From: Labilibacter sediminis
GTDB lineage: Bacteria > Bacteroidota > Bacteroidia > Bacteroidales > Marinilabiliaceae
Reading direction: 5' to 3'
Assembly: GCF_005877885.1 (NCBI RefSeq)
Contig: NZ_VCHY01000001.1
Span: forward strand, 1 to 64,000
DNA: 64,000 bases
Part shown: one piece after another, positions 21,329 to 45,510 of the stretch
Layout of the letters: each line of letters opens with the position of its first letter
Numbering within the stretch: position 1 is the stretch's first letter
Notes under the pieces: model-generated
The model's database searches: none
Seen by the model: the letters and a program-made list of their open reading frames with translations, nothing else
What the model was told of the DNA's origin: nothing
Program-made: the position numbers and the translations under genes

Positions 21329-22405
21329 TTATTCTCCTTTAGTGACAATGGACATTGCAGCTTTCATATAACCCATTGCATAAGCCATACCTGCATACCA
21401 TGCGCCATCACATTCCATTTGTGGAGTATGATCAGGGATTAAGACACCCTGGAAATTATTTTTATGTAAGATTTCTAATATCCTAACCATATCAATATCA
21501 CCTTCATCTACAAATACTTCTTTGTAATTAGGTACCTTACCCACAATATTTCTAAAATGGATGTAGGCTATTTTATCTTGCTTGCTATACTGGTCAGTAG
21601 CTTCGTGCACCTCACCCTCAGTCATTTCAGCAATTGAACCTAAACAAAACTCAAGGTTGTTGCTAGGACTAGGTTTCATATCAATTAATTTCTGATACAT
21701 ATCCGGCTGGTATACCAGGCGAGGTGTATTTCTTACATAAGGCATCGGAGGATCGTCCGGATGTGCAGCCATCTTTACTCCAGCTTCTTCTGCAACAGGA
21801 ATAATGTGGTCAAGAAAATATTGTAATCTCTTCCATAATTCTTCGTGATCAATACGAGGTAATGTTCCTTCCGGAGCATTTGGATCATACACCATATTCC
21901 AAACCATTCCATTAGGAACGGGTGTTTCATCAAACGTACCATTCATACCTACCGATTCGGCACCTGCACGTGCATAAGGTCCAATATCGCGACTACATAC
22001 ACCTGCCAGCGAAAAGTTATATCCAAAAACAGGAATTCCTGCCTGACCAACAATTCTAATTTGCTCCTTTACCAACTCTATTTGCTCTTCCTTTTTAGGA
22101 CCGTCAAGCAAAATGTCGTGCCACATCGCCGGATCAAAATTTTCTATTGCTTCCAACTCCAAACCATGCTTGTTAATATTGGCTTTTAACTGAAGTAACT
22201 CTTCTAAAGACCATAACTGACCTTGTCCCGCACTCCCCCAACCATCAGTATCTCCAATAGGTTGATTGGCATTTTCTTTACTATTTTTTTCGTGACTAAA
22301 ATAATCCACTAAATGTACAACCAAATGGGTTGCGCCACATTGTTTAGCAAATCTATAATGCTCATCATTAAGCATATGTTTATATAATCCAAATCCTAAT
22401 TTCAT
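21329..22405 (-). CDS. uxuA: D-mannonate dehydratase
   Basis: The 358-residue protein matches the short Bacteroidota form of mannonate dehydratase, a TIM-barrel metal enzyme that converts D-mannonate to 2-keto-3-deoxy-D-gluconate. Recognisable parts are the opening LGFGLYKHMLNDEHYRFAKQ, HLVDYF, LELEAIENFDPAMWHDILLDG, GYNFSLAGV, MAAHPDDPP and the closing GVLIPDHTPQM. E. coli UxuA is about 35 residues longer. It is the last gene of the five-gene hexuronate operon, 29 bp after the Nramp-fold transporter, and follows the isomerase and reductase steps encoded upstream. Confidence 0.92.
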   Translation of the reverse strand: MKLGFGLYKHMLNDEHYRFAKQCGATHLVVHLVDYFSHEKNSKENANQPIGDTDGWGSAGQGQLWSLEELLQLKANINKHGLELEAIENFDPAMWHDILLDGPKKEEQIELVKEQIRIVGQAGIPVFGYNFSLAGVCSRDIGPYARAGAESVGMNGTFDETPVPNGMVWNMVYDPNAPEGTLPRIDHEELWKRLQYFLDHIIPVAEEAGVKMAAHPDDPPMPYVRNTPRLVYQPDMYQKLIDMKPSPSNNLEFCLGSIAEMTEGEVHEATDQYSKQDKIAYIHFRNIVGKVPNYKEVFVDEGDIDMVRILEILHKNNFQGVLIPDHTPQMECDGAWYAGMAYAMGYMKAAMSIVTKGE

Positions 22406-22434: not shown

Positions 22435-23679
22435 TTAACCAATCACATCAAAAATAACTCCTTGTATCCCCTGATACCCCATATAAAGCGCAAACACCAT
22501 TACCAATGCCAACAACACCATTTCTTTTTTATTATTGATCTGGTTACCCATTAACGATTTTTTTGAACTTAAGTAGATGATAGCACCAACAGTTATAGGT
22601 AGAACAATAGATAAGCATGCTTGTGACATCAACAATACAAAAACAGGTTTAAAACCAAACAACACACCCGTAACACTAATAAAACTTAACGCCACCAACA
22701 TTAAACGGTATTTTAGTTGTGACACATCTCTTTTTTCCGATTTGTAATCAATCACTAACCATGGAATAACCAGTAAATTTGGTAAGTGAGATGATATACC
22801 AGCAGCCACAATACCTATAACAAAAATACCCATGGCTCCTTTCCCGGCAATTGGCCCCATTAATTCAACCATTTCAGACACATGATTTAGCTTTATGTCT
22901 TTTACATGTAAGGTAGTTGCTGCTGTAATCATAACTGCTGCACTGATTAAAAACATCAACGAGGCACTTACCCTGGCATCACGATGTTGTAACTTTTTAT
23001 CTTCTATTGTCCACCCTTTTTCCTGAGCTATTTGACTTCGAATAATAAATACAAAAGTAGACACCGTTGTTCCAACCATTCCAGCCAAAATAACTAAAGA
23101 GTTATTGTCGCTTCCAGTAGACTGTTCAGGCAACTTTGGCACAAGACCTTGAGCTATTTCTGATAATTTTGGGAATTTAATAATCATGGTGGCAATAAAT
23201 GCCAGCCCCATAATAGCAACCAATATGGCCAATATTTTTTCAAAGAAAGCTGTATCTCCATTCCACATTAACAATAGCAATATACCAGCTATCCCTATTG
23301 CCCAAACAGAAGCTGAAACACCACCTTCAATAATGGTTTCTGACCAAAGTTGAAGTACATCTGCGACTATCCCCAACACTCCAATTAGTGCACTCATAAT
23401 GATTAAGGATAAAGCACTAATTAAAAACCTGGCTAAAGTCGGATGAATGTGATCACGTATTCCCTGAATGGCTGTTTGCCCCGTAACACTGGTAAACTTG
23501 GCAAAATGAACCATCAAAAAGTAAGTGATAATACAACTAATGGCGATTGTCCATAACAAATCCAATCCGAAATTAGCACCTGATTTAGACATAGCTGTAA
23601 TACTACCAGTACCCACATTGTAGCCAATTAAAAAGATACCTGGTAAAACAGAAGCGATGTATTTTTTAAAATTTCCCAT
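22435..23679 (-). CDS. Nramp-fold transporter lacking metal-binding motifs, probable sugar-acid transporter
   Basis: The 414-residue inner-membrane protein has about 11 TM helices and the overall Nramp/MntH layout, starting SVLPGIFLIGYNVGTGS. In true Nramp metal transporters TM1 carries DPGN and TM6 carries MPH; here the aligned positions read GTGS (TM1) and STF in GTTVSTFVF (TM6). None of the usual metal ligands is kept. It lies 9 bp after the SDR gene and 29 bp before uxuA, inside a complete hexuronate operon that otherwise lacks a transporter. I infer import of glucuronate, a keto-acid or other uronate by a divergent Nramp relative. A non-canonical Mn/Mg supply role for UxuA is the alternative. 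Confidence 0.75.
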   Translation of the reverse strand: MGNFKKYIASVLPGIFLIGYNVGTGSITAMSKSGANFGLDLLWTIAISCIITYFLMVHFAKFTSVTGQTAIQGIRDHIHPTLARFLISALSLIIMSALIGVLGIVADVLQLWSETIIEGGVSASVWAIGIAGILLLLMWNGDTAFFEKILAILVAIMGLAFIATMIIKFPKLSEIAQGLVPKLPEQSTGSDNNSLVILAGMVGTTVSTFVFIIRSQIAQEKGWTIEDKKLQHRDARVSASLMFLISAAVMITAATTLHVKDIKLNHVSEMVELMGPIAGKGAMGIFVIGIVAAGISSHLPNLLVIPWLVIDYKSEKRDVSQLKYRLMLVALSFISVTGVLFGFKPVFVLLMSQACLSIVLPITVGAIIYLSSKKSLMGNQINNKKEMVLLALVMVFALYMGYQGIQGVIFDVIG

Positions 23680-23688
23680 ACTTATTTT

Positions 23689-24447
23689 TTAAAATCCAAT
23701 GGAATTACCTCCATCAACCGGTAAACATATACCTGTAATAAAATCAGCAGCGTCTGAAGCTAAAAAAGCAGCAGCCTTAGCTATATCGTCAGGTGTTCCA
23801 AACCTGCCAGAAGGTGTGCGATCTAAGATTTTAGCTTTACGCGCCGGATCTTTTTCCATAATATCTAAAAACATTTTTGACTCAATAAATCCAGGTGCAA
23901 TAGCATTAAACCTTACTCCTGTACCCGAATACTCTGAAGCCAAAGTTCTGGTCATTCCCAATAAAGCTGTCTTAGAACTACTATAAGCTACAACTTGTGT
24001 TAAACCAAATAGCGCTGACATTGAACTAATATTAATTACAGAACCAGCCCCTCTCTCTATCATAGGCTTTACAGCTGCTCTTGTCAATGAAAATAGACTA
24101 TTCACGTTAGTATCAATTACTGCAGCAAACTCTTCATCTGTAGTTTCCATTGAAGGTTTTTTACAATGACGTCCGGCATTATTTACCAAAATATCAATTG
24201 CGCCAACTTCTTTTTCTACTTCTAAAATAAATTTCTCATGCAAATCTTTTTGAGTTACATCATTTATATAGGTAAAGCAATTGTCTCCAAGTAATTCCTT
24301 GGCTTCATCCAGTTTTTCCTGTACCAAATCTGTTATGACTACTTTTGCACCCACTTTAATAAATTGTTTGGCTATTCCTAAACCAATTCCGGCTGCTCCA
24401 CCTGTAACAAGGGCAACTTTCTCTGTTAAATCAACTAATTTCTCCAT
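23689..24447 (-). CDS. SDR-family oxidoreductase, probable fructuronate/mannonate oxidoreductase
   Basis: The 252-residue classical short-chain dehydrogenase has TGGAAGIGLG for the cofactor, NNAGRH, and the catalytic triad Ser142, Tyr155, Lys159 (YSSSK). Asp40 after the second strand suggests NAD(H) preference. It ends in the usual PVDGGNSIGF. Context places it between uxaC and uxuA: the missing step is reduction of D-fructuronate to D-mannonate, normally done by UxuB of another family, and many Bacteroidota use an SDR here. KduD-like reduction is an alternative. Operon spacing is 28 bp to uxaC and 9 bp to the transporter. Confidence 0.82.
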   Translation of the reverse strand: MEKLVDLTEKVALVTGGAAGIGLGIAKQFIKVGAKVVITDLVQEKLDEAKELLGDNCFTYINDVTQKDLHEKFILEVEKEVGAIDILVNNAGRHCKKPSMETTDEEFAAVIDTNVNSLFSLTRAAVKPMIERGAGSVINISSMSALFGLTQVVAYSSSKTALLGMTRTLASEYSGTGVRFNAIAPGFIESKMFLDIMEKDPARKAKILDRTPSGRFGTPDDIAKAAAFLASDAADFITGICLPVDGGNSIGF

Positions 24448-24475: not shown

Positions 24476-25885
24476 TTAAATAAATTTGAAATACTCGTTT
24501 GCATTATGGTAGCATATATTTTGTACCATTTGCCCTAACAAATTCATGTCTTTTGGCAATTCGCCATTTGCTACATCCTGCCCCAACATATTACATAGTA
24601 TTCTCCTAAAGTATTCGTGTCGTGAGAATGAAATAAAACTGCGAGAGTCGGTTAGCATGCCAACAAACCTGCTTAATAAGCCCTGTGATGATAAAGCATT
24701 TATCTGCTTTTCCATACCATCTTTTTGATCAAGAAACCACCAGGCAGATCCATATTGCATCTTCCCGGGTACTGATCCATCCTGAAAGTTTCCGAGCATG
24801 GCTGCAACCATTTCATTATCTCTTGGATTTAGATTATAGATAATGGTTTTTGTTAGTTTCCCTTTTTCTTCAAGTCTGTTTAGAAATATCCCCATACTAC
24901 GAGCATAACTAAAGTCGGCTATGGAATCAAAACCACAAGCTTGTCCGATATTACGTACCCCTTTGGTATTTACATCGCGCAAAGCACCAACATGAAACTG
25001 TTGCACCCATCCTTTTTCGTGATTCCACACTGCAAGTTGGTGCAGGATAGCTGTCATAAACTCTTTTTGCGCAATAGGATTTATCCCTTCTCCTGATCTT
25101 AATTTTTGAAATATTTTTTGAATTTCTTTTTCAGTCACCTCTTCAACAGGAAAAGGGAACTCCAAACCATGATCAGATAGACGACAACCATTTTCATGAA
25201 AATAGTCGTGCCTCTGCTTTAATGCAGAAAGAAAATCATCATATGATTCTATGGAACCATTAATTACTTCTGCCAATTGATCCACATATTGATTAAAAGA
25301 CTGCACATCTCCCACAGCCATGGCTTTATCGGGACGCCATGCAGGTGTCACCTTAATACCAATCTGTGTTTTGTTCATTGATTGATGCCATTCCAGTGAA
25401 TCAATCGGATCATCCGTGGTACATAATTTTTCAACATTAAATTTCTTTAATGTTGACTGAACACTCAATTGACCTGAGCTTAACTGATGGGATGCATTAT
25501 CATAAACTTCTTTGGCTGTATCTGCATTAAGCATCTTTTTAATACCAAAAGGTTTAGACAATTCCATATGCGTCCAATGATACAAGGGATTTCGCAATGT
25601 ATTTGGTACGGTTTCAGCCCATTTCAGAAACTTTTCGAAATCACTCGCATTTCCTGTGATATATTTTTCATCAACCCCGTTAGCGCGCATGGCACGCCAT
25701 TTATAATGATCCCCTTCTAACCAAGCCTGAGATATATTATCAAATACTCTGTTTTGCGCAATATCCTTAGGAGATAAGTGACAATGATAATCGATAATGG
25801 GCATTTTTGCTGCAAAGTCATGATATAGCTCACGAGCCACTTCACTTTGAAGTAAAAAATTTTCCTGTACAATTGGATTCAACAT
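24476..25885 (-). CDS. uxaC: Glucuronate isomerase
   Basis: The 469-residue protein is a full-length UxaC of the amidohydrolase-like TIM-barrel family, which isomerises D-glucuronate to D-fructuronate and D-galacturonate to D-tagaturonate. The N-terminus has the metal motif DYHCHLSPKDIAQN, followed by the characteristic GDHYKWRAMRANG and later QFHVGALRDVN and NPRDNEMVAAM. The length matches the E. coli enzyme (470). It is cytosolic. It is the second gene of the operon, 11 bp after the RraA-like gene. Confidence 0.95.
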   Translation of the reverse strand: MLNPIVQENFLLQSEVARELYHDFAAKMPIIDYHCHLSPKDIAQNRVFDNISQAWLEGDHYKWRAMRANGVDEKYITGNASDFEKFLKWAETVPNTLRNPLYHWTHMELSKPFGIKKMLNADTAKEVYDNASHQLSSGQLSVQSTLKKFNVEKLCTTDDPIDSLEWHQSMNKTQIGIKVTPAWRPDKAMAVGDVQSFNQYVDQLAEVINGSIESYDDFLSALKQRHDYFHENGCRLSDHGLEFPFPVEEVTEKEIQKIFQKLRSGEGINPIAQKEFMTAILHQLAVWNHEKGWVQQFHVGALRDVNTKGVRNIGQACGFDSIADFSYARSMGIFLNRLEEKGKLTKTIIYNLNPRDNEMVAAMLGNFQDGSVPGKMQYGSAWWFLDQKDGMEKQINALSSQGLLSRFVGMLTDSRSFISFSRHEYFRRILCNMLGQDVANGELPKDMNLLGQMVQNICYHNANEYFKFI

Positions 25886-25896
25886 AAACTTAGGTT

Positions 25897-26589
25897 TTAC
25901 ATTATTCCGAACTTCTCAAATGCATCAACGGTGCTCATACCATTTTCCAGAGCCTGTTTTACCGTTTGCTCTCCACGTGCTTTTTCTATAGCTCCTTCAA
26001 AAGCTTCTTTTTCAACCTCCTGTGGTATAATAAGTACTCCATCTCTGTCACCATATATAATGTCGCCCGGGTTTACACGAATACCATTAAATTCAATAGG
26101 TACTCTGTAATCAATTACCTTACCTCTTGGCCCCTGATCCTGCGCATAAGTTCCTACAGAAAAAGTTGGGAAATTCAGACTTTCTATCTCATTTGTATCT
26201 CTGGAATAGCCATCCATTACGGCACCGGCAGCACCTAATTTAATGGCACGCGTACTCATTAGTCCTCCCCAAAGCGCATAACGATGAGATGCTCCTGAAC
26301 ATATATAAACCTCATTTTTCTTTAAACTATCTAAAGCCTCGAACATGATACCAAATGGCTTTTTCATCATTGGGTTATTGGTATTTTCCACTTCTTCTGC
26401 AAACACATCAGCTTCTAATACAGGCATGGCTCTGCCAATCATAACCATATCTGTTTTTATAGGTTTCACCTGAGGTGCTAAAAACTGATGCTGATATCCT
26501 AATTTATCCAACACATCACCAACCAAGGCAGTAAAAAGCTCTTTTTTGGCGATATCGAACAACTCTTCATCATCTTTCCACAACTTCAT
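25897..26589 (-). CDS. RraA-family protein, possible pyruvate-type aldolase
   Basis: The 230-residue protein shows the RraA/HMG-aldolase fold: GDVLDKLGYQHQ near the start, GAAGAVMDGYSRDT (about 125-140; conserved Arg-Asp metal/pyruvate site) and VNPGDIIYGDRDGVLIIP near the C-terminus. Members are either RNase E inhibitors or divalent-metal class II aldolases for 4-hydroxy-4-methyl-2-oxoglutarate and similar keto acids. As the first gene of a hexuronate operon it is far more likely to be catabolic than an RNase regulator. The window has no KDPG aldolase, so cleavage of a 2-keto-3-deoxy acid is a reasonable but untested guess. A promoter lies in the 143-bp gap shared with the divergent AraC gene. 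Confidence 0.8.
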   Translation of the reverse strand: MKLWKDDEELFDIAKKELFTALVGDVLDKLGYQHQFLAPQVKPIKTDMVMIGRAMPVLEADVFAEEVENTNNPMMKKPFGIMFEALDSLKKNEVYICSGASHRYALWGGLMSTRAIKLGAAGAVMDGYSRDTNEIESLNFPTFSVGTYAQDQGPRGKVIDYRVPIEFNGIRVNPGDIIYGDRDGVLIIPQEVEKEAFEGAIEKARGEQTVKQALENGMSTVDAFEKFGIM

Positions 26590-26732: not shown

Positions 26733-27581
26733 ATGAAACCATTTTTAATAGATACTACCCCACAGCTTCAAAAGGGCTATTCGGTTAAACCATTTAATGC
26801 TGTGGCATTTGCCCTTCCTTATCACATGCACGACCGATATGAAATAACATGGATAATGGAAGGACACGGGACCCGGATCATAGGCGATAATGTTTCTTCA
26901 TTTAAAAGTGGTGACATTTTAATATTAGGGCCCATGTTACCACATCAATGGCAATCATCTACTGTAAATAAAAATGAACGCGCCCAGTCTGTTTCCATCT
27001 TTTTTAATGCCGAATTTCCATCCAAAGACTTTTGGTTTCAGAATGAAATGCGTGCCATGAAAGAGGTAATAGATTTGTCTACCAGAGGATTACATCTTAA
27101 AGGCAAACTAAATAAATCAATTGCAAGAAAAATTAAAAAGCTTTCCAATATTTCAGGAGCCAGAGGAGTACTGCTAATACTTGAAATGCTTCAGGATATT
27201 TCGGAATCAGATCAATATGAAATTTTAGCCAGTGAGGGTTATAAATGCCGAAAAAACCTGGACACAGACAGAATCAATAAAATCACCAACTATATTTTTG
27301 AAAACATAGAGCAAAAAATTTCTTTACCCATATTAAGTGAGATGGTGAATTTGCATCCTAATTCTTTAGCTCGCGAATTTAAACGAGCCACGGGTTTTAG
27401 TGTAGTAGATTATATTAACAATGTACGTATTGGAAAAGCTACACGACTTTTAACCGAAACTTCAAAAACAATACTGGATATTTGTTACGAATGTGGATTT
27501 CAGAACTTATCACATTTTAACCGTTATTTTAAAAAGGTTAAGAATACAACTCCTTCATTATACAGAAAAAGCCGCCTGTAA
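26733..27581 (+). CDS. Cupin-sensor AraC-family regulator of the hexuronate operon
   Basis: The 282-residue protein has an N-terminal cupin (YHMHDRYEITWIMEGHGTRIIGD, GDILILGPMLPHQW; about 30-80) and an AraC DNA-binding domain (about 180-280, with LSEMVNLHPNSLAREFKR and ICYECGFQNLSHFNRYFKK). It is divergent from the RraA-like/uxaC/SDR/transporter/uxuA operon, so a hexuronate or intermediate is the likely inducer. It is paralogous to the regulators at 10003 and 50514. Its second-domain phrase CYECGFQNLSHFNR is nearly shared with the one at 50514. The stop codon lies inside the terminator hairpin. Confidence 0.88.
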   Translation: MKPFLIDTTPQLQKGYSVKPFNAVAFALPYHMHDRYEITWIMEGHGTRIIGDNVSSFKSGDILILGPMLPHQWQSSTVNKNERAQSVSIFFNAEFPSKDFWFQNEMRAMKEVIDLSTRGLHLKGKLNKSIARKIKKLSNISGARGVLLILEMLQDISESDQYEILASEGYKCRKNLDTDRINKITNYIFENIEQKISLPILSEMVNLHPNSLAREFKRATGFSVVDYINNVRIGKATRLLTETSKTILDICYECGFQNLSHFNRYFKKVKNTTPSLYRKSRL

Positions 27582-33399: not shown

Positions 33400-35580
33400 C
33401 TAATTAATAATAAATGAAGTTCTTTTTAAGTCTTTACTCTCTGATGAATTTCCAACAAACAACTGATATTCCATTTTTTCAACTTCCCACTTCCTTGTAT
33501 CCGGATTATACCAATCCATATCCTGAGCTTTTACCTGTAGCAAGATTTCTTTAGATTCTCCCGGTTGAAGAGAAACGCGTTTAAAATTACGAAGCAACTT
33601 CTTTGGTCTCTCTACCATAGAGTTTTCAAAACCAATATATAATTGAACAATCTCATCGCCACTAACATTACCTGTATTTTTAATATTTACACGAACATTT
33701 AATGTGTCATTTTCTGTTAATTCCGTTTGTTCAATTACAGGCTCAGAAATGCTAAAAGTTGTATAACTTAAACCATGACCAAAGGCGTAAGCCGGTTTCA
33801 TTTCTTTTTCATCAAATAAAGTATATCCATGGTAATAACCATAGGTTACTTCTTTGGCAAAGGGATCAAAATTGGGCAACTGATCCTGACTCACAGGAAC
33901 TGTAAATGGCAGTTTTCCACTTGGATTTACATCACCAAAAATAATGTTAGCCAATGCATTTCCTCCTTCCATACCACTGTACCATGCCATAATAACAGAT
34001 GATACTTTATCCTTCCAGTTTTCACAAATGATAGCACTTCCTCCTACTAGTGAAACCACAACATTTTCATTGAGCTTCGAAACCTGATCAATCAGGTTCT
34101 CATCTTTTTCAAGTAGCGTTAAGGAAAAACGATCTCCACCTTTATTAATAACATCTTGCTGTGTTCGCCCTTCAACAGCTTTATCATTCATTAAAAATTC
34201 ACCCTCTTCCTTTGGCCCATAACCTGCCACTACAATAACAGCATCTGCATCTGCAACAGTTGCTTTTAACTCTTCCGGGTTAGTACCATCGGAATATACC
34301 ACTGAAGCCAGACCACTTAAAGCATTAGTAATTCCCTCCAAAGGAGTAACCACATATTTAGGTCTAAAATAACTACTTCCCTTATCTCCGGTTTCTTTAC
34401 TCGTTGCAAGTTGACCAATTACTGCAACTTTGCTCAGCTTCTTTTTATCTAATGGCAATAATTGGTTTTCATTTTTAAGCAGTACCATACTTTTTTCGGC
34501 TGCTTCTAAAGCCAATTTACAATGTTCTTCGTTTGCAACCAAGTCTTTGGTATATACCATTGGATCTTCCCGGGTCAAATATTTCAGTTTAGTCTCTAAT
34601 ACACGTTTAACGCATTTATCCACATCCTCAGTGCTAAGCGTTCCTTCATCAATATATTTTTGGAGTTTCTGACCTGAGTGCATTTCCATTGGCATCTCTA
34701 CATCCATACCGGCTTTAATGGCTTTTACACCGTCATAGATGCCCCAAATCCAATCAGAGGTAACAAAACCTTCAAATCCCATTTCGTTACGCAATACATC
34801 GGTTAAAAGCCATTTGTTATGACCACAATATTCTCCATTTACCTTATTATAGGCATTCATTATAGAGGCTACACCTGCATCAATGACCATCTGATAGTGT
34901 GGTAAATATACTTCACGCAATGTGCGATCATCCACCTTAACATCCACATAAAAGCGAGAATCCTCAATACTATTTAATGCAAAATGTTTGGCGCAGGCCA
35001 TTACGTTATGCTGTTGAACACCCTCGGTAACTGCAACACCCATTTTACCCATCAGCCATGGATCTTCCCCATAGCTTTCCTGGGCACGTCCCCAACCTGG
35101 ATGACGTAATAAGTTGATACAAACACCACCAAAATAGTTGGCATTTTGTGCACGGGCTTCCTGACCAATCACATCTCCTACCCGATTCTCTAAATCAGTA
35201 TCCCAGGTGGCAGCGCGAGCCATAGCTACAGGAAAGTTTGTTGAAGGACCAACAGTAATACCCCGCGGACCGTCAGAAAAGGCTATGGGCTGAATACCAT
35301 TCTTTTCATCGCGACCGGCATAGTTTATGCAAAACTGTTTTATTAATCCGAAACGAATACCCAGTTTAACGTACAGAAGCTGACCTGTATCACCCGCCAG
35401 TTGTTTTAGCTTGTCTTTTAATGACATGGTCTTCAACAAGTGATTCACATGCTTTTCTACATCATTTTCTGATACTTTTGTTTGAGGTTTTACCTCATGG
35501 TTTGGATTGTACAAAGCGTAGGCAAACATGCTTCCTATTAAAAGCAATATTATACCTATAATGATAAGAGCAATTTTCAT
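33400..35580 (-). CDS. Glycoside hydrolase family 3 beta-glucosidase, three-domain
   Basis: The 726-residue protein begins with a hydrophobic segment (residues 3-23) that is either an uncleaved anchor or a signal peptide. GH3 features: PIAFSDGPRGITVG, HPGWGRAQESYGEDP, KHFALNSIEDSRF and nucleophile Asp276 in FVTSDW. A second alpha/beta domain follows (KSMVLLKNENQLLPL onward). The C-terminal fibronectin-like domain (about 620-720) includes GDEIVQLYI and RPKKLLRNFKRV. This full-length architecture suits a periplasmic beta-glucosidase or beta-xylosidase. It lies 50 bp after a sulfatase gene and appears co-transcribed with it. Confidence 0.9.
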   Translation of the reverse strand: MKIALIIIGIILLLIGSMFAYALYNPNHEVKPQTKVSENDVEKHVNHLLKTMSLKDKLKQLAGDTGQLLYVKLGIRFGLIKQFCINYAGRDEKNGIQPIAFSDGPRGITVGPSTNFPVAMARAATWDTDLENRVGDVIGQEARAQNANYFGGVCINLLRHPGWGRAQESYGEDPWLMGKMGVAVTEGVQQHNVMACAKHFALNSIEDSRFYVDVKVDDRTLREVYLPHYQMVIDAGVASIMNAYNKVNGEYCGHNKWLLTDVLRNEMGFEGFVTSDWIWGIYDGVKAIKAGMDVEMPMEMHSGQKLQKYIDEGTLSTEDVDKCVKRVLETKLKYLTREDPMVYTKDLVANEEHCKLALEAAEKSMVLLKNENQLLPLDKKKLSKVAVIGQLATSKETGDKGSSYFRPKYVVTPLEGITNALSGLASVVYSDGTNPEELKATVADADAVIVVAGYGPKEEGEFLMNDKAVEGRTQQDVINKGGDRFSLTLLEKDENLIDQVSKLNENVVVSLVGGSAIICENWKDKVSSVIMAWYSGMEGGNALANIIFGDVNPSGKLPFTVPVSQDQLPNFDPFAKEVTYGYYHGYTLFDEKEMKPAYAFGHGLSYTTFSISEPVIEQTELTENDTLNVRVNIKNTGNVSGDEIVQLYIGFENSMVERPKKLLRNFKRVSLQPGESKEILLQVKAQDMDWYNPDTRKWEVEKMEYQLFVGNSSESKDLKRTSFIIN

Positions 35581-35630
35581 AGTACTATTATTTTAGAATA
35601 TTCTTTGACATTAAGTTTTAATTGATCCAA

Positions 35631-37034
35631 TTATTTTGCATCTGCGATTCCACAAGGACGTTTCTCAGCCTCCAATTGAGCCATCTCCTCCTCTGCTCTC
35701 TTTTTGATCTTTTCTACCAACTCAGGATATTGTTTTGCCAGATTATTGGTTTCACCAATATCGTCTTTAAGATTATATAACTCCCATTGCAACCTTACAC
35801 TCTTGGCTTTACCCTTTTTGCCGTTTTTACCCGGTTCTGTAATTGTTCCATAGGATTTTGGGAAACCCAGCTTCCAATCTCCCATTCGGGCAGCTTCAAG
35901 TTTTGTTCTGGTGATGTATAAAAATATTTCATGTGGTGATGTTGCTTTCCGTTTACCTTTTATGATACGACTAATGTCCTTCCCATCAATTTTATTTGCG
36001 GGTAATTCTGTTCCTGTTAACATCGCCATAGTTGGTAAAATATCCATTGCTGTCACCAACTCATCACATTCTTTGCCGGCAGGTATTTTCGCAGGCCAAC
36101 TCATAATACAAGGTACCCTTTGTCCTCCATCAAAACTGGTTGACTTACCTTCGCGCAATGGACCCGCACTTCCGGCATGTTCGCCATATATTAACCATGG
36201 TCCGTTATCCGACGAAAATATAACCAGGGTATTATCGTACACTCCATTTTCTTTTAAAGCCTTTATGACCTCACCAACTGACCAGTCAATTTCCATGATG
36301 ACATCTCCATACAAACCATGTTTTGATTTTCCTCTAAACTTATCGGATACATGTAGAGGTACATGAGGCATAGGGTGAGCTAAATAAAGAAAGAACGAAT
36401 CATCACTTTTACGATTGATAAAATCTACTGCTCTTTCGGTAAACCGGGTTGTTAGTTGATCCTGATCCGGGTTTTCCTCGATAGTTTCCAATCCCTCAAT
36501 TAATGGTAATGCAGGAAAATTTAAAGGCTTACCTGGAAGCATATCATTGGAGTAAGGCAAACCAAAGTATTCATCAAACCCATGACTTGGAGGCAAAAAC
36601 TCAGGTAAATGGCCCAGGTGCCATTTGCCAACACATGCTGTCGCATATCCTTCACCTTTTAACATTTCGGCTAAGGTTGTTTCATCAGTATTAAAACCTC
36701 TATTGGCTTTATTATGTGTCCACTTAGGGCCTTTAGGAAAAAGCACCTGGCCTAAACCAACTCTATTGGGATAACACCCTGTAAGCAAGGCAGCTCTGGA
36801 TGGTGTACAAACCGAAGCACCCACATAAAAGTCGGTAAAACGCATACCCGTATCTGCGAGCTTATCAATATTCGGTGTTTCAAATCCTTTGGCTCCATAG
36901 CAGCCTAAATCAGCATATCCCTGATCATCGGTAAAAATAATAACCAGGTTAGGCGCTTTTTTTATTTTGGCTTGAACTACTACTGTAGATATTGAAAGAA
37001 GACCTATTAAAAGGTAGATTTTGAAATTATTCAT
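35631..37034 (-). CDS. S1-family sulfatase (arylsulfatase A-like)
   Basis: The 467-residue protein has a signal peptide (to about residue 22) and the S1 sulfatase core: metal Asp pair in FTDDQGYADLG, the formylglycine site C76-T-P-S-R, VGKWHLG, HPMPHVPLH and SSDNGPW. The C-terminal subdomain has YNLKDDIGETNNLA. The cysteine must be oxidised to formylglycine by a maturase encoded elsewhere. It removes sulfate from a periplasmic oligosaccharide; the position on the sugar cannot be told. It is first in a two-gene unit with the GH3 gene, 50 bp apart, which suggests desulfation before glycosidic cleavage. Confidence 0.9.
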   Translation of the reverse strand: MNNFKIYLLIGLLSISTVVVQAKIKKAPNLVIIFTDDQGYADLGCYGAKGFETPNIDKLADTGMRFTDFYVGASVCTPSRAALLTGCYPNRVGLGQVLFPKGPKWTHNKANRGFNTDETTLAEMLKGEGYATACVGKWHLGHLPEFLPPSHGFDEYFGLPYSNDMLPGKPLNFPALPLIEGLETIEENPDQDQLTTRFTERAVDFINRKSDDSFFLYLAHPMPHVPLHVSDKFRGKSKHGLYGDVIMEIDWSVGEVIKALKENGVYDNTLVIFSSDNGPWLIYGEHAGSAGPLREGKSTSFDGGQRVPCIMSWPAKIPAGKECDELVTAMDILPTMAMLTGTELPANKIDGKDISRIIKGKRKATSPHEIFLYITRTKLEAARMGDWKLGFPKSYGTITEPGKNGKKGKAKSVRLQWELYNLKDDIGETNNLAKQYPELVEKIKKRAEEEMAQLEAEKRPCGIADAK

Positions 37035-37237
37035 ATTTTCATGCGTTTAAAATTTTCAATTGCTGCATGGAACTCCCAAGAAAATTTAATCATTCTCTAA
37101 TGTGTAAACATGGCTAATTAAATTTTACATGGTCGTTTCATATTGTTTGATTACAATACAAAAATCATCAATCAAGGCTTATGTAATAGCCTAATTTCTG
37201 GTTGATATAGGGGTAAAAAAATTCAATATTAAAAAAG

Positions 37238-37270
37238 AAAAGGCCGTAGATATCGTACCCACGGCCCTTT
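37238..37270 (-). terminator. Terminator after the CruF-like gene
   Basis: AAAAGGCCGT (37238-37247) pairs with ACGGCCCTTT (37261-37270) with one mismatch; a T-rich tract follows on the minus strand. It lies 27 bp past the CruF-like stop. Confidence 0.65.
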
Positions 37271-37296
37271 CCTTAAATTTTCTGATAATTAAATTA

Positions 37297-38253
37297 TCAG
37301 GATGTTCTTATATTCTTTTGCGTCTTATTTAATTTCCCCTGTTTATAAATATAAAACAGATAAAAGGCATGCAACACTGTCACTACAATCATTGGGACAT
37401 ATGCTTCTGATAATCCTCTGGCAAATCCCACCAATACATATACCATATTAAATGCCATAGGTACTATAAAGCCTACAGCATCTTTTTTAGCATTAAACGA
37501 TTCGCTTATCTTTCGGTATCTTATAAGAATAAACAATGCCACAGTGCAATGAATACATAACATGATTAACTCCGGAATTCGTTCACTTATTACCTGGCCG
37601 TTAAATGATCCATATAACAAAATTGTACTAGTAGGCATTACCATGAATAACATACTGGTAACCGGCAATAACCAGGGATAGATATACCCTATCTTCTTAC
37701 TGTAGTTGAATTTTTTATGTACCCATTCTCCAATATTCACGGATAAGGCAAACCATAACATCAGGAATATCCAACCAGAGAAATTATAAAAAGGAACACC
37801 AAAAAAGTTATCTGAATAATCCGGTGTCCACATCCATTGTGTATGCCTTACATCTTCGTACATATAGGCATCCCAATGCATAACAGGGTCAACTACAAAA
37901 TCAGCTACTGAAGCAAGAAAAGCGATGGCAAAAGGTTTCAGAAACCCAGGCATCTTTAAATTTCGTACCAGCACATAGGCTGAATAAAAAAGAACTGCTT
38001 CCATCATGGATGTACCTAATCCAATGTTTCCAACCCGTAATATCCTGTAAGGCGAGTATGGATGCCAACCCATGGCATGACCAATATTTTCGAAAATTCC
38101 TGAGTAGATTAAAAATGCAAATAATGTAAAAACCTTTGGTATTGGTGTTTTCTCCGTTTTAATAACATGTACTATACAGTACATAAAAAGAAAGAACGAA
38201 ACCATGTCAATAATTACCCAGGTTAAGGGTAATTGTGAAAATGATGTAATCAT
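37297..38253 (-). CDS. Polytopic membrane protein, carotenoid-biosynthesis (CruF/DUF422)-like
   Basis: The 318-residue protein has about eight TM helices and no signal peptide. A central segment (about 115-165) contains ADFVVDPVMHWDAY, then FFGVPFYNFSGWIFLMLWF. Earlier, GHAMGWHPYSPYRIL follows a conserved Glu. These motifs resemble the CruF / bisanhydrobacterioruberin hydratase family (PF04240), membrane enzymes that hydrate carotenoid end groups. No other carotenoid gene is near; it stands alone between two sulfatase genes with its own terminator. A distinct function in this locus is quite possible. Family link moderate, function unknown. Confidence 0.55.
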   Translation of the reverse strand: MITSFSQLPLTWVIIDMVSFFLFMYCIVHVIKTEKTPIPKVFTLFAFLIYSGIFENIGHAMGWHPYSPYRILRVGNIGLGTSMMEAVLFYSAYVLVRNLKMPGFLKPFAIAFLASVADFVVDPVMHWDAYMYEDVRHTQWMWTPDYSDNFFGVPFYNFSGWIFLMLWFALSVNIGEWVHKKFNYSKKIGYIYPWLLPVTSMLFMVMPTSTILLYGSFNGQVISERIPELIMLCIHCTVALFILIRYRKISESFNAKKDAVGFIVPMAFNMVYVLVGFARGLSEAYVPMIVVTVLHAFYLFYIYKQGKLNKTQKNIRTS

Positions 38254-38564
38254 AAATTTAACTTTAATGTTGTGTTTAAAATGAATTGTATAAGATTATC
38301 TGTATTGAATAATCTCACTTACAAATTTCCCATAAAGTCAGCTTATGAATACCTAATTATTGTTTGATTTTATACGCAATAAAATTCGGATAATATCATT
38401 AGATAACCCCTTAAAAAATGACATTACACCGAAACTAATTCTAAACCAAGCTTATTCACAATATCCTCTTTAATACAGTTTCTCGAAGATCTACGCAAAA
38501 TAAGAAACCGGACCTATATCAACTCATTTGTATTAGTCTCACATTAAATTTATCCAACATTCAT
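38254..38564. other. Intergenic region, nothing recognised
   Basis: About 310 bp of AT-rich sequence between the CruF-like gene and the next sulfatase. No gene, strong hairpin or exact -7 motif was recognised. Confidence 0.4.
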
Positions 38565-40106
38565 CTAAATTCCATTACGCACCTTGTTTAATTCATCCCT
38601 GAGTTCTTTGGCAACTTGAGGATATTCTTCAATCAGGTTACTTTTCTCCCCTGGATCTTCTTCCAGATTATATAGGGCATCCTTTAGAATATCATCCGGA
38701 CGGGAAAGTTTATATAAAGAAGTATTTCTCAGATTGGTTGTACCCTCAATAAACTTCCATTTTCCTTTTTTAATAGCAAACAGGTATTCTTCTCCGCTTA
38801 GCAACACGGATTTTCGTTTCTTTTTGGCTTTGCAAGTCCAATACAACTCATTGCTAAAGTCATAACTGTCTTCTGCGGCTTTATCAGGAAGTTCAACTCC
38901 AGTCATTGAGGCAATGGTTGCCATAAAATCGGTAAAGCAAACTGTTCTGTTACTGACCTTACCGCTTTTAACTTTTGCGGGCCATTTTACAATCATTGGC
39001 ACCCGATGTCCACCTTCCCAAATATCACGTTTGATTCCACGAAATACATAACTACTCTCATGACCATATTTGGCAACTTGGGGTTTCTCCCCCCATCGCG
39101 CATCCTTTGTTTCATATTCTGGGCCATTATCACTCGTAAAAATGATGATTGTATTTTCGGCAATGCCACACGAATCAATGGTGGCCAAAACTTTACCAAT
39201 AAAATCATCCATCTCCACAATAAAATCACCATACAAACCGGCTCCACTCTTCCCTTTGTAATCATCTAAAGGCACAACAGGTGTATGAGGGGCTGTTAAA
39301 GCCCAATACAAGAAAAATGGCTGCTCGGTTTTGCTCTGTTCACGAATCAGCTCCTGGGCTTTCTCGGTAATCACAGGCATTACCTGTTCATGTTGCCAAC
39401 CCGGCGCCATCAGCCCGGCATCTCCATACATCGAACGGGGTTTTCTTTCAGTAGGTTTCTTCAGAAACTGTTTATTTTCAATCCAGGTATAAGGCGGAAA
39501 ATTAGGTACATCATCGCCAAAATAGTAATCAAAACCTACATCAGTCGGTCCTTTGAGTATTGGTTCGTCCCAATTAATCTTTTTGCTGAATTGTCTGCAT
39601 TGTTTCATGAACAGCTTAAAATACCCGGTCTCAAATCGTTCTTCATCAGAAAAACTTAGTACAGAACCATCAGAGGAATTCCATTGCCACCCCAGGTGCC
39701 ACTTACCGACACAAGCCGTGTAATAACCATTCGCTTTAAGCATTTCCGGTAAAGTCGCAATGCTATCCTCAATCAGTGGAGCCTCCCAAGGCATCAATAC
39801 TGAATGCCTGAGTCGGCTGCGCCAGGCATAACGCCCGGTTAAAATACCGTAACGGCTGGGTGTACAAACCGCAGCATTGGCATGTGCATCGGTAAATAAC
39901 ACACCCTCTGATGCCAATTTGTCAATATTGGGTGTTTGTACTTTTGAGTTTTCATTCAGACAACTCACATCACCATACCCCAAATCATCGGCCAGAATAA
40001 AAACGATATTTGGTGCCTTTTTCTTGTCTTTTGCCAACATAGGAAAAGAACAAAACAGAACTATCGCTAGTCCTGTTACGAATTTAAAACTTGTAATTTT
40101 TGACAT
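38565..40106 (-). CDS. S1-family sulfatase (S1_15-like)
   Basis: The 513-residue protein has a signal peptide (to about residue 25, LAKDKK) and all S1 motifs: ILADDLGYGDVSC, formylglycine Cys81 in CTPSRYGILTGRYAWRSRL, VGKWHLGWQW, ALTAPHTPVVP and TSDNGPEYET. The CTPSRYG...WRSRL pattern is typical of the branch often annotated as S1_15 in marine Bacteroidota; the subfamily is from memory. It is encoded 9 bp after the 716-residue GH2 gene, so the two enzymes probably act on the same sulfated glycan. Confidence 0.9.
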   Translation of the reverse strand: MSKITSFKFVTGLAIVLFCSFPMLAKDKKKAPNIVFILADDLGYGDVSCLNENSKVQTPNIDKLASEGVLFTDAHANAAVCTPSRYGILTGRYAWRSRLRHSVLMPWEAPLIEDSIATLPEMLKANGYYTACVGKWHLGWQWNSSDGSVLSFSDEERFETGYFKLFMKQCRQFSKKINWDEPILKGPTDVGFDYYFGDDVPNFPPYTWIENKQFLKKPTERKPRSMYGDAGLMAPGWQHEQVMPVITEKAQELIREQSKTEQPFFLYWALTAPHTPVVPLDDYKGKSGAGLYGDFIVEMDDFIGKVLATIDSCGIAENTIIIFTSDNGPEYETKDARWGEKPQVAKYGHESSYVFRGIKRDIWEGGHRVPMIVKWPAKVKSGKVSNRTVCFTDFMATIASMTGVELPDKAAEDSYDFSNELYWTCKAKKKRKSVLLSGEEYLFAIKKGKWKFIEGTTNLRNTSLYKLSRPDDILKDALYNLEEDPGEKSNLIEEYPQVAKELRDELNKVRNGI

Positions 40107-40115
40107 ATTAAATCG

Positions 40116-42266
40116 TTACTTCACAAATACTTTTCTCACTGATTGAATTTTTTCCTGAGTAACCGGATCTGTAACTTCACCAATCAACAAGCAATTACCT
40201 GCCCTTTTAGGGAACTTAAAGTTGACGTAACAAACCTGTTTTCCACTTCCGTTTAAATTATAATCAGCACGCTCTTCTGCCAACACTTCTCCATCTTTAA
40301 CCAGTTTCAAGGTAACTTTTCCGGTATAACTCTCTGTATAGTCATTAAGCACCACCACAGGAATTTTATAACCGGACTTTTTCATACTCAAGAACTTATT
40401 GTTCCAGTTAAATACACATACTCCCATTGGGTTAAATGCGGGCCGAACATATTTCTCAAAATATGGAGTAAACTCAAGAGTTTCTATATTCTGGAAATTA
40501 TCTGAAGTATAGCAACCATCAAATGAATGAGCTAATCCACAGAAATGATGTAAAACAGCCGGACGCTGAGTTCTCCAAAACTCAGTTAAAGAGGCTAAGG
40601 TATAGCCATAAAACTCAAAACGCTCATCGGCAGTGGAATTAGGGAAGTTTATCTCGTAGCCCTTTTCTGTTAATAAAGTTGGTTTCCCATCGCGAGATAA
40701 CCATAACCAACCGTATTCATTTAAGCAAAGTGGATTTCCAAATTTTCCTGAAATAATTGTTAGAGGATCACGTTTATCTAAATGTTCAAGTTCGAATGCA
40801 CCATCTCCCATCTTCATTCCTGCTTTAAAAGCTCCGTAAAAAAGATAAGGGTGTTCTTCCCAGGCATCCGTTGGATCATTATACATACTCCACCCCAGGT
40901 TCCATGGTCGATTTGACAGATCCAGATGACGCACTTCTCCAACAGCCTCTTTTATCTGCTCATTTCCTTTCTCAGGTGATTCATTTTGGGCATCCCAAAT
41001 ACAAACAGACGGGTAATTCCAATGATCAGCCATCATACCCGTATATTCTTTTACCAACTGCTCTTTTGTATGGCCTAATTGACGATTGTTAAATACCCAT
41101 ATATTGTATTCATCCTGTATAATCATTCCTTCTTCATCTGCAATACGATACCACGATTCAGGTGGAAAACCAAGTGTAAAACGCACACTGTTCCAGTTCA
41201 TATATTTAAATTGACGGAATAACTTACGAACCCATTCTTCATCCCATGGCTTATCGTCTCTGTGATGATCTTCTACAAATCTGAAAAAACATATGTTTGT
41301 GCCTCTCAAATAATATTGGTTATTATTTAATGCATAGGTATTGGTTCCTTTCATGACTTCGAACTTGCGCATTCCGAAACGCGTTGTCTTCTTATCTCCG
41401 GAAGTTTCAAGTTCAAGATTATATAGGTGAGGCGTTGAAGGCGACCACAACTTACAGTCAGCAATGACAACATCAACTTCTACCTTTTTTGACGCTCCTG
41501 CAGCAAGAACAATCTTTCTTAATTTATTCGATCCACTTAAAACATCATCAGAATAACCTTTGACCGTAGCACTAAGGTATGTTTTTTGGGTTTTAGACGT
41601 TTCATTTTTCAGTGTAACAACAGCCTTTGCTGTTTTGGTATCAATATCTGGTACTATTTGTACATCAACAATGCGTGGCGAATTCGACAAAATTAGTTCC
41701 ACATCATCATAAATTCCAGGTAGATATCTTAGTTTTTCATAATCCAATCCGGAAATCACTTCTTTACCAAATCCTTCAACAGAACTCTCCAAACGTACGA
41801 CAAGTGTATTTTCCTGATTATTCCCTTTTAATGCACTGGTAACATTAAATTCACCTGAAGTAAAGTTTAGCGGTTGCTCTCCAATTTCTGCACCATTCAG
41901 CCATACTTTTGCACTATACTTAGCTTTCCATATTTTTATTTGGGCAAAATCAGGTACTTCTCCTTCAATTTTAAATGTACGTTTATACCAAAAAGCTTCT
42001 CTTAATGAATCTTTTGCCGGAATCACCATACCTCCCGAATCTTTTGATAACCAATCTCCAACTCTTTTGAAACCTGGAGTAGCCATATCCAAAAATCCTG
42101 GAACCGGGCATTCGTGATTAAAACTATTAGGCATCTCTGTAAGATTACCTTCTTGTACCTGCCATATACCATTTAAACTAATAGTTTGGCGTTGCGCCTG
42201 AACAGACAATGAAACTGTCATCATCAACAGGCCAATAATACCTAACTTAAAATTTAGATTTTTCAT
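40116..42266 (-). CDS. Glycoside hydrolase family 2 enzyme
   Basis: The 716-residue exported protein has a signal peptide (to SVQAQR, about 25). It has a jelly-roll domain (about 30-195, with FWYKRTFKI and YLPGIYDDVELI), an immunoglobulin-like domain (about 200-300, LWSPSTPHLYNLELE), and a TIM barrel with acid/base Glu429 in WDAQNE and nucleophile Glu517 in LCLNEYGW. It ends with a short beta domain. The barrel is divergent from classical LacZ (RGTNICFFRF, SVRFTLGFPPE). Beta-galactosidase, glucuronidase or mannosidase activity is possible. It is co-transcribed with the sulfatase 9 bp downstream and has a -7 match at 42292-42299. Confidence 0.87.
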   Translation of the reverse strand: MKNLNFKLGIIGLLMMTVSLSVQAQRQTISLNGIWQVQEGNLTEMPNSFNHECPVPGFLDMATPGFKRVGDWLSKDSGGMVIPAKDSLREAFWYKRTFKIEGEVPDFAQIKIWKAKYSAKVWLNGAEIGEQPLNFTSGEFNVTSALKGNNQENTLVVRLESSVEGFGKEVISGLDYEKLRYLPGIYDDVELILSNSPRIVDVQIVPDIDTKTAKAVVTLKNETSKTQKTYLSATVKGYSDDVLSGSNKLRKIVLAAGASKKVEVDVVIADCKLWSPSTPHLYNLELETSGDKKTTRFGMRKFEVMKGTNTYALNNNQYYLRGTNICFFRFVEDHHRDDKPWDEEWVRKLFRQFKYMNWNSVRFTLGFPPESWYRIADEEGMIIQDEYNIWVFNNRQLGHTKEQLVKEYTGMMADHWNYPSVCIWDAQNESPEKGNEQIKEAVGEVRHLDLSNRPWNLGWSMYNDPTDAWEEHPYLFYGAFKAGMKMGDGAFELEHLDKRDPLTIISGKFGNPLCLNEYGWLWLSRDGKPTLLTEKGYEINFPNSTADERFEFYGYTLASLTEFWRTQRPAVLHHFCGLAHSFDGCYTSDNFQNIETLEFTPYFEKYVRPAFNPMGVCVFNWNNKFLSMKKSGYKIPVVVLNDYTESYTGKVTLKLVKDGEVLAEERADYNLNGSGKQVCYVNFKFPKRAGNCLLIGEVTDPVTQEKIQSVRKVFVK

Positions 42267-42291
42267 TACTATTTACGTTTCTAGTTTTAGT

Positions 42292-42299
42292 CAAAATTA
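42292..42299 (-). promoter_or_regulatory. Putative -7 element (TAATTTTG) of GH2-sulfatase operon
   Basis: CAAAATTA on the plus strand gives TAATTTTG on the minus strand, 26 bp before the GH2 start, matching TAnnTTTG and just downstream of the preceding gene's terminator. Confidence 0.45.
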
Positions 42300-42369
42300 A
42301 GATCCTTTAACTTTCATTACTACACTGAATAATCTTATTCTAAGGGTAAATAAGTTCGCGAAGGCAAAA

Positions 42370-42405
42370 AAAAGGGAGAATAGCCTAAACAGCTTCCTCC
42401 CTTTT
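42370..42405 (-). terminator. Rho-independent terminator of a sulfatase gene
   Basis: AAAAGGGAG (42370-42378) pairs perfectly with CTCCCTTTT (42397-42405), and on the minus strand a run of T follows (A run from 42366). It lies 25 bp past the stop of the 525-residue sulfatase. Confidence 0.75.
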
Positions 42406-42429
42406 GAAAATAATTGAAACTCAAGTATC

Positions 42430-44178: not shown

Positions 44179-45510
44179 CTAATTAAGCCCCAACTCTTTT
44201 TCAATTTCTTCTAACGATTTCCCTTTGGTTTCTGGTATATATTTGACAATAAATAGGAAAGCTAAGAAACTGAAGAATCCAAAAATTCCAAATGTAATTT
44301 CATTTCCTAACTGATTTATCATCATAGGAAGAAACTGTACAGTAATAAATGTAAATAACCAACATGCTGCTGTAGCTAATGACATAGCCAATCCTCTTAT
44401 GCGGGTTGGGTATATCTCAGATATAAGCACCCACATAACCGGAGCAAGCGAAGCTGCAAAAAATGCAATATAGCTTAACAAGGAGATTAATACACCGATA
44501 TTATACTCAACGTAGGAAGTCCAAACTAAGCAAACTATTGATAAAGTCATACCAGCAGTTCCCCATAGTAATAGAAGTTTTCTTCCCAACTTATCTATTA
44601 ATCCTAATGCTACTATGGTAAATAGGAAATTGACTACACCTACCAATATAGATTGCATTAATGCTTGATCTCCACCAACTCCGGTATTACTAAAAATGGT
44701 AGGAGCATAACTAATGACTGCATTAATTCCTGTAATTTGTTGAAAAGCAGCAAGGGCACATCCTATAAGAACCACTTTTGCTAATTTACCTTGAAACAAC
44801 TCCTTAAGCCTAACTTTCTGGTTATCTGATGACGACGTGGCTTGCTTTATATTCTGAAGTTCTTCCTCGGCAAAAGCCTCTCCTCCAATTTGTGCCAATA
44901 CTTTTTTGGCTTTTTCAAATTTATTTATTTTAGCGAGCCATCTTGGACTCTCCGGAAACGAGACAATTAATAAAAGTAAAAACAGAACACTAAATACTAC
45001 AGGTGCTCCCATCATATACCTCCAACCATGATTAACTTCGGCAAAACCAAAATCAATAACGTAGGCTAAAAGTATACCGATAACAATAGCAAATTGATTA
45101 CCTGTAACCAGTGTACCACGTTTTCCGGCAGGTGCAATCTCTGAAATATAAGTTGGAGCCAGCACAGAAACAAACCCTACCCCTACACCGGATAAAAACC
45201 TGCTTAAAACAAAAGCTACTAAGGAATCAGCGATTGCACACCCAAGCGAGGATATAATAAATATAATAGCCGAAATAATCATCATTAACTTACGACCATG
45301 CTTATCACTTAGCGATCCTATTACCATAGCTCCTGTTAAACACCCCAGCATAATGGAGCTAACTGCTATACCCAAACTCACATCTGTTAATCCAAAATAA
45401 TCTTTAATCAACGGAACTGCTCCAGAAATACCAGCCATGTTCAAACCAAAAATTAATCCACTTTGTACGGCTATAAATGTAATCCAATATAAATATCTAT
45501 TACTTTTCAT
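44179..45510 (-). CDS. MFS sugar porter (XylE/GalP type)
   Basis: The 443-residue inner-membrane protein has 12 TM helices and the sugar-porter signatures: GSLSDKHGRK between TM2 and TM3, RFLSGVGVGFVSVLAPTYISE, FPESPRWL after TM6, the QQITGINAVISYAP segment in TM7, LIDKLGRK, and the closing PETKGKSLEEIE. This is the proton-coupled hexose/pentose symporter family. It is the last gene of the hexose operon, 15 bp after a cupin isomerase, and would import the sugar that the ROK kinase phosphorylates. Confidence 0.92.
   Translation of the reverse strand: MKSNRYLYWITFIAVQSGLIFGLNMAGISGAVPLIKDYFGLTDVSLGIAVSSIMLGCLTGAMVIGSLSDKHGRKLMMIISAIIFIISSLGCAIADSLVAFVLSRFLSGVGVGFVSVLAPTYISEIAPAGKRGTLVTGNQFAIVIGILLAYVIDFGFAEVNHGWRYMMGAPVVFSVLFLLLLIVSFPESPRWLAKINKFEKAKKVLAQIGGEAFAEEELQNIKQATSSSDNQKVRLKELFQGKLAKVVLIGCALAAFQQITGINAVISYAPTIFSNTGVGGDQALMQSILVGVVNFLFTIVALGLIDKLGRKLLLLWGTAGMTLSIVCLVWTSYVEYNIGVLISLLSYIAFFAASLAPVMWVLISEIYPTRIRGLAMSLATAACWLFTFITVQFLPMMINQLGNEITFGIFGFFSFLAFLFIVKYIPETKGKSLEEIEKELGLN

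Follow-up and report, generated by a model that had tools for sequence, protein, structure and literature searches.

The 64,000-nucleotide window analysed here, the first 64,000 positions of a contig of Labilibacter sediminis, carries a single-strand operon of five genes in the order RraA-like, uxaC, SDR, Nramp and uxuA-like, with intergenic gaps of 9-29 bp. The first gene encodes an RraA-like or aldolase-family protein (25897..26589, minus strand; PF03737, 119 bits) and is followed on the same strand by the glucuronate isomerase UxaC (24476..25885; PF02614, 665 bits; NF002794, 610 bits, cut-off 387), an SDR oxidoreductase that is a candidate fructuronate reductase (23689..24447; PF13561, 208 bits), a putative Nramp-related transporter of 414 aa and of the class that we call GTGS (22435..23679; assigned by PF01566, alignment and an AlphaFold2 model), and a short, 358-aa protein of the UxuA or mannonate dehydratase-like family (21329..22405; PF03786, 188 bits). 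A divergent AraC-family gene (26733..27581, plus strand; PF12833, 86 bits) is the candidate regulator of the operon. The original prediction had set the Nramp gene between the SDR and uxuA genes of an operon with the glucuronate isomerase, reductase and dehydratase; the position and the isomerase stand, but the dehydratase is short and scores under the model cut-offs, the reductase activity is putative, and the RraA-like gene belongs to the operon as well.

The UxuA-like protein falls below both NCBIfam cut-offs (158/191 and 123/200 bits). Compared with nine others, it retains the His, Cys, His and Asp-His positions, which we take from the ManD structure to be the metal ligands, and, in common with the four other short forms among them, it lacks about 24 residues after the YNF motif. 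Short uxuA genes (at most 375 aa) make up 8 of the 44 uxuA genes lying within five ORFs of the best 80 of 542 relatives of the Nramp gene, and all eight accompany Nramp genes closely related to that of the window. The short UxuA-like subfamily goes with the Nramp subclade of the window (window 21329-22405 and loci L033, L034, L035, L036, L042, L045, L047 and L081).

The Nramp gene is the only PF01566 match in the L. sediminis genome, which also encodes FeoB and ZIP. The genome has a second, canonical hexuronate cluster, uxaC-kdgK-kdgA-uxuA with the TRAP genes DctM and DctP (contig C99, locus L203), and the window operon is therefore an additional hexuronate operon. The expected lack of any other transporter is thus true within the operon but not of the genome, where a separate hexuronate operon is served by TRAP. 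The Pfam scan, which took in part of the window ORFs, showed one further inner-membrane transporter, of the MFS type (44179-45510). No Rfam family, metal-sensing riboswitches such as the M-box included, reached its gathering score in the window; the M-box accompanies only some NRMT members. A scan for promoters and terminators gave counts no higher than in shuffled sequence. Three sulfatase genes with GH3 and GH2 genes at 33400-44007, about 7-17 kb away from the hexuronate genes, likely form a sulfated-polysaccharide locus.

Fold and metal-ligand positions

The minus-strand ORF from 23679 to 22435 is real, and the opposite reading of the region is riddled with stops. Its product matches the Pfam Nramp profile PF01566 over the full length (203.3 bits, cut-off 29.8) and passes the cut-off of the NCBIfam equivalog NF037982, 'Nramp family divalent metal transporter' (83.6 against 50 bits), a name that is given by similarity rather than by functional test; it fails the cut-offs of MntH NF001923 (108/430 bits) and TIGR01197 nramp (44/272 bits). 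A PDB sequence search returned ten matches with E values up to 1, all of them divalent-metal Nramp-family entries. The AlphaFold2 model, built on an alignment of 53 sequences, has a mean pLDDT of 88.3 and a pTM of 0.87, and its top Foldseek matches are EleNRMT (7qia, TM 0.82/0.84) and then DraNramp (TM 0.81/0.85), which places the protein in the Nramp/LeuT fold, in agreement with the predicted Nramp scaffold. The alignment of 53 relatives contains 36 invariant columns, and the ORF has at least 406 aa in 79 of the best 80 relatives (in the 80th, L051, the wrong ORF was picked) and in 21/21 GTGS loci of the family and order. Broken or cut copies are few, namely L223, split over two ORFs, and G077:C58, with an internal TGA. 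A similar-locus search with the single protein returned 28 stretches, none of which was a relative.

Alignments with DraNramp and between classes put the motif GTGS (residues 23-26; 23602..23613, minus strand, counted from the ORF start at 23679) at the DPGN position of TM1, and STF (residues 207-209; 23053..23061, minus strand, counted likewise) at the MPH position of TM6. The ligand columns are thus occupied by G23 (Asp), S26 (Asn), S207 (Met) and F209 (His), and that of the TM3 Glu by G100. The protein therefore lacks the TM1 DPGN, the TM6 MPH and the TM3 Glu of the proton pathway that mark canonical Nramp/SLC11 proteins such as DraNramp and BfraNramp, with which it shares the fold and the family profile. 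The replacement of DPGN and MPH and the loss of the usual metal ligands were as predicted, with the TM3 Glu lost in addition; intact DPGN or MPH residues in displaced positions were ruled out, none being seen in either alignment.

These columns were followed in 102 GTGS rows (the window, 80 and 21 loci, including five overlaps and L051 with its wrong ORF). The TM1 Asp column is Gly in 102/102 and the TM1 Asn column Ser in 101/102, a constancy that is partly built in because one of the two patterns used to search for relatives contained GTGS. The TM3 Glu column is Gly in 99 rows; Phe, Ser, Ala or Gly fill the TM6 Met column in 101 rows, and Gly, Phe, Ala or Val the TM6 His column in 94. By contrast, DPGN-class rows keep the Asp (19/19), the Glu (18/19) and both His (19/19), and DAGG-class rows keep Asp and Glu (15/15). 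The column of the second TM6b His is occupied in the window protein by Arg214 (codon 23038..23040, minus strand; class alignment) and is Arg in 101/102 GTGS rows, L051 being the sole exception, while other Nramp classes have His, Gln, Met or Gly there.

The best solved fold match, EleNRMT, stands for the NRMT-like Mg2+ transporters. Thr204 is common to the GTGS and DAGG classes, but of the NRMT signature (TM1 DxxG and TM6 TxxA/T) the window protein lacks the Asp. According to excerpts of its description, EleNRMT keeps both Asp55 of TM1 and Glu133 of TM3 (PMC8806188); the GTGS proteins have neither, and their site is therefore further from a metal site than that of NRMT.

Classes and phylogeny

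The family search covered 71 genomes, 16 of them with an Nramp match, and the matches were divided by TM1 motif into GTGS (window plus seven), GPGT (seven), DPGN (three) and one fragment without TM1. In the order search, 107 of 295 genomes matched at E <=1e-20. From family and order, 72 loci were fetched and 70 classed (GTGS 21, GPGT 8, other GPGS/GPGT 7, DAGG 15, DPGN 19); L153 and L191, whose Nramp ORF was not called, were dropped. Only the family and the order supplied control loci, with the best-scoring order rows taken for DPGN and DAGG, and five of the seven family matches plus three others for GPGT. In an unrooted tree of 91 rows, for which the program treekit warned that long branches meet, GTGS, DPGN and DAGG are each split off by a 100/100 branch, and the window protein falls in a group of 13 rows supported at 100/99. 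In excerpts of the literature, the Nramp-related proteins are paraphyletic with respect to the canonical ones (PMC12873925). Since the GTGS clade also stands apart from the canonical one in our tree, the idea that its site was 'stripped' from a canonical Nramp is probably wrong.

Members of the GPGS class, mostly with Gln at the Arg214 position, adjoin a DHDPS-family gene (L161) and an acetate/butyrate-kinase-family gene (L163), with L162 and L164 similar by gene lengths. This class is possibly a further organic-acid carrier.

Gene neighbourhoods of the GTGS clade

Neighbourhoods were compared for the best 80 of 542 relatives confirmed by contig search, with six GTGS loci common to two locus sets. 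Five ORFs on each side were labelled with family HMMs, which were built from neighbours of these 80 loci (for PxpA, from five GPGT loci) and so favour those sets. On this footing uxuA lies within five ORFs in 44/80 of the best relatives against 0/49 non-GTGS Nramp loci (Fisher's test 1.2e-12, relatedness of loci ignored), and it is adjacent on the same strand with a gap of at most 150 bp in 28 of the 44. Chance proximity to uxuA was ruled out by the 0/49 in the control classes. Single-linkage clusters contain uxuA in 20/40 cases at 80% identity, 7/17 at 70% and 4/7 at 60%. The same 80 loci also have nearby a ManA-like isomerase (23), PL7 (11), PL17 (11), a UxuB-type dehydrogenase (10), a sulfatase (10) or UxaC (7). 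Any hexuronate gene is found at 49/80 of these best relatives, 4/21 GTGS loci of the family and order, and 0/49 non-GTGS loci; with alginate, ManA-like, gluconokinase and RraA genes included, the counts are 60/80, 8/21 and 1/49.

In the survey of homologues, which had been proposed as a check, uxuA is also absent within five ORFs at 36 of the best 80 relatives and 19/21 family and order GTGS loci (present in 2/21), some loci being cut by contig ends, and none of the seven other GTGS genes of its own family is on a contig with uxuA. No gene of the wider sugar list is found at 20 of the best 80, some again cut by contig ends, including L041 and L043, where the neighbours are URO-D and FA desaturase/Rieske genes, respectively.

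ManA-like, or class I mannose-isomerase-like, genes (including L054, L060, L063, L065, L070 and L110) accompany alginate lyases at several loci, and may encode a D-mannuronate/D-fructuronate isomerase that supplies UxuB and UxuA. At L054, L065 and L085 a second GTGS gene stands by a gluconokinase a few genes off, so that one locus holds two paralogues with different partners.

Within the subclade of the window, the set of RraA, uxaC, SDR, Nramp and uxuA is found again, in varying gene order, in Bacteroidota (L033, L036, L148), Pseudomonadota (L042), Kiritimatiellota (L045) and, incompletely, Planctomycetota (L047). That the linkage stems solely from a single recent transfer was rejected, as gene order and partner genes differ between loci. 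In two Aquimarina loci (L037, L039) GH88, KduI and SDR genes precede the Nramp gene and uxaC and uxuA were not seen within five ORFs, and at L038 of the same subclade GH88 and KduI are joined by a heparinase-like gene; at these three loci GH88 and KduI, another uronate route, take the place that uxaC and uxuA have elsewhere.

A phylum sample of 395 genomes, of which 21 including that of the window matched at E 1e-70, gave 21 further places. At six of them a GH2 neighbour is 70-100% identical to the L226 protein, an NCBIfam beta-glucuronidase (625 bits, cut-off 544), and six of the 21 have an SSF symporter nearby, among them five of the six GH2 loci. Alginate lyases, gluconokinase, KdgK or KdgA occur near the GTGS gene at L229, L231-L233, L237 and L243, with DGOK and gluconolactonase-like genes at L237, NagB-like or GH20-like genes at L225, L236, L239, L240 and L242, and RraA at L224, which is the same locus as L105; at L238, L241 and L244 no gene was labelled by the HMMs. 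Elsewhere, NagA-like, Nramp and NagB-like genes are grouped in L023, L143, L144 and L145, and an alpha-L-fucosidase adjoins the GTGS gene at L147. At L223 the GTGS gene is flanked by enoyl-CoA hydratase and FAD genes, with a CoA-transferase also near. Taken together, the neighbours link the GTGS clade to the use of carbohydrates, for the most part but not exclusively sugar acids, with exceptions.

The L223 gene (CP054241.1, 807214-808415; 43% identity) consists of two overlapping ORFs and is absent from the gene table, and its 834-kb record is labelled as an E. coli plasmid yet contains the chromosomal-type genes dnaB, alr and dusA. The plasmid search yielded 24 records, and among the matches listed, 14 besides the first are haloarchaeal with 27-29% identity.

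The transporter slot of hexuronate operons

Nineteen other family uxuA loci, mostly top-ranked, were hand-picked from the 61 places besides that of the window. Eight carry a DctM-like TRAP protein of 434-486 aa (Pfam-confirmed in L203) and five an ExuT-like MFS protein (Pfam-confirmed in L211); in the remaining six there is another polytopic protein near uxuA (L216, L217), a distant one (L220) or none (L204, L221 and L205, the last at a contig end). These TRAP and MFS carriers of uxaC/kdgK/kdgA/uxuA clusters (DctM, MFS_1) are unrelated to the window protein. None of the 19 has an Nramp gene, as was already implied by the choice of contigs, none of which was a GTGS contig; hence UxuA has no general need of one. 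Around the best 80 of 542 relatives, a second polytopic protein of at least 300 aa within five ORFs, judged by hydropathy count, is absent from 30 of the 44 uxuA loci and present in 14.

Discussion

Our best-supported reading is that the window protein is a sugar-acid importer, an Nramp-related permease, to which we give a probability of about 0.68. It draws on computed results for a protein of this fold class, namely the linkage of its clade, in several phyla, to genes for hexuronates and other sugars, the slot filled elsewhere by TRAP or MFS carriers, and the loss of the metal ligands. Against it count the NCBIfam metal-transporter match, the GTGS loci that lack uxuA or any listed sugar gene, the neighbours with no link to sugars, the other polytopic or SSF proteins near part of the loci, and the TRAP-served hexuronate operon elsewhere in the genome. 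Of the original proposal of an Nramp-derived sugar-acid importer, the importer thus keeps its support and the derivation by stripping does not. The GTGS proteins would be inner-membrane LeuT-fold permeases of a clade importing sugars, chiefly sugar acids, and the window protein would bring in a hexuronate, most likely D-glucuronate or a close relative. UxaC would isomerise the imported compound, the SDR would reduce it and the UxuA-like protein dehydrate it to 2-keto-3-deoxygluconate, which KdgK and KdgA, both encoded in the C99 operon, could finish. We infer transport, its substrate, the coupling ion and the role of Arg214 from these data: the breaks in TM1 and TM6, rich in Gly, Ser and Thr, may form a wider pocket hydrogen-bonding hydroxyls, and Arg214 may hold the carboxylate or serve coupling. 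As Arg214 is kept also near amino-sugar genes, it cannot alone set acid specificity.

The closest precedent is PxpT/YcsG (MntG) of the 'G-motif 3' group, likewise Nramp-related and encoded in a catabolic operon. Excerpts of one report state that deletion of pxpT in C. glutamicum abolishes growth on 5-oxoproline and is complemented, that PxpT is 50% identical to YcsG, and that metal transport is left possible (PMC13274462), while excerpts of another describe YcsG/MntG as a Mn2+ importer whose over-expression raised cell Mn2+ (PMC10448178). We equate our GPGT class with PxpT/YcsG on the strength of its oxoprolinase-type neighbours. It differs from GTGS by the motifs GPGT and VPYN, with Asn in the TM3 Glu column and His in that of Arg214 (8/8), and lies outside the GTGS clade. 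All eight GPGT loci (L028-L032, L158-L160) have such neighbours, PxpA in six and a single-chain 1252-aa hydantoinase/oxoprolinase in two (L158, L159); PxpA is near 6/8 GPGT loci, five of which supplied the PxpA model, against 0/80 best relatives (of 542) and 0/21 GTGS loci. The window protein thus shows neither the pxpABC linkage of the PxpT/YcsG group nor the motif and clade of our GPGT class. The pairing of GPGT with two unrelated enzyme types is easier to explain by an organic cargo than by a metal one, with a substrate that is itself conjectural because hydantoinases proper share the oxoprolinase domains; as expected of a substrate carrier, it supports the importer reading by analogy. The PxpT/YcsG link to 5-oxoproline use lessens the novelty of a sugar-acid permease, which would not be the first protein of this fold with a proposed non-metal cargo. 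Our literature search, mainly of open literature, found no proposal of an Nramp-related sugar-acid importer; besides the 5-oxoproline papers, only an alginate-cluster legend for Alteromonas sp. 76-1, in the excerpts at hand, was relevant, and it lists an 'Nramp, metal-ion transporter' (PMC6431674). That gene, likened to ours by legend, is labelled a metal transporter.

UxuA is a metal enzyme, and the window protein could instead be a divalent-metal importer feeding Mn2+ or Fe2+ to the metal enzymes of the operon, UxuA above all. Its PF01566 membership and NF037982 equivalog match would agree with this, as would the absence of any other Nramp from the genome, though FeoB and ZIP are present. 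The Mn2+ effect of YcsG points the same way, and so does EcoDMT, which with an NRMT-like site still carried Mn2+, its Asp being retained, in excerpts of the study (PMC8806188). We nevertheless consider a metal importer unlikely, as the GTGS clade has lost both acidic residues that NRMT keeps, none of the 19 other family uxuA loci has an Nramp gene, no metal-sensing riboswitch was detected in the window, and GTGS genes also stand near genes for gluconokinase, DgoK and beta-glucuronidase. To our knowledge, these three enzymes have no common need of Mn or Fe.

A permease for another compound of the pathway, such as an unsaturated or 5-keto uronate, an aldonate (e.g., mannonate) or a uronate-bearing disaccharide, is suggested by the GH88 and KduI genes at L037-L039 of the same subclade and by the beta-glucuronidase, gluconokinase or DgoK partners of GTGS genes elsewhere; moreover, since the genome already has a TRAP-served uxaC/uxuA operon, the window operon may serve a different compound. 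The uxaC gene of the operon, however, points to an intact hexuronate as the entry compound, and we regard this alternative as improbable. A role in sensing or regulation, or decay of a gene that persists through linkage, rather than transport of a growth substrate, would fit the few broken or cut GTGS copies, but is made very unlikely by the near-constant ORF length, the invariant columns and the persistence of the gene through changes of gene order.

Should the sugar-acid importer be confirmed, the Nramp fold would carry sugars besides metals. Because the NCBIfam equivalog names the protein a divalent-metal transporter, such sugar-acid operons may lack an importer on paper. The GTGS and GPGT findings also bear on the dispute whether YcsG/PxpT handles Mn2+ or 5-oxoproline, and a comparison of the pockets of GTGS, GPGT, NRMT and canonical proteins would make the origin of metal selectivity testable. 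In a broader view, to which we give even odds, GTGS proteins would be widespread Nramp-fold carbohydrate permeases whose subclades serve hexuronates, glucuronides, aldonates, products of alginate or amino sugars. A fold that binds bare metal ions would then accommodate whole sugars in a sister lineage, and the ancestors of canonical Nramps may have been carriers of organic solutes.
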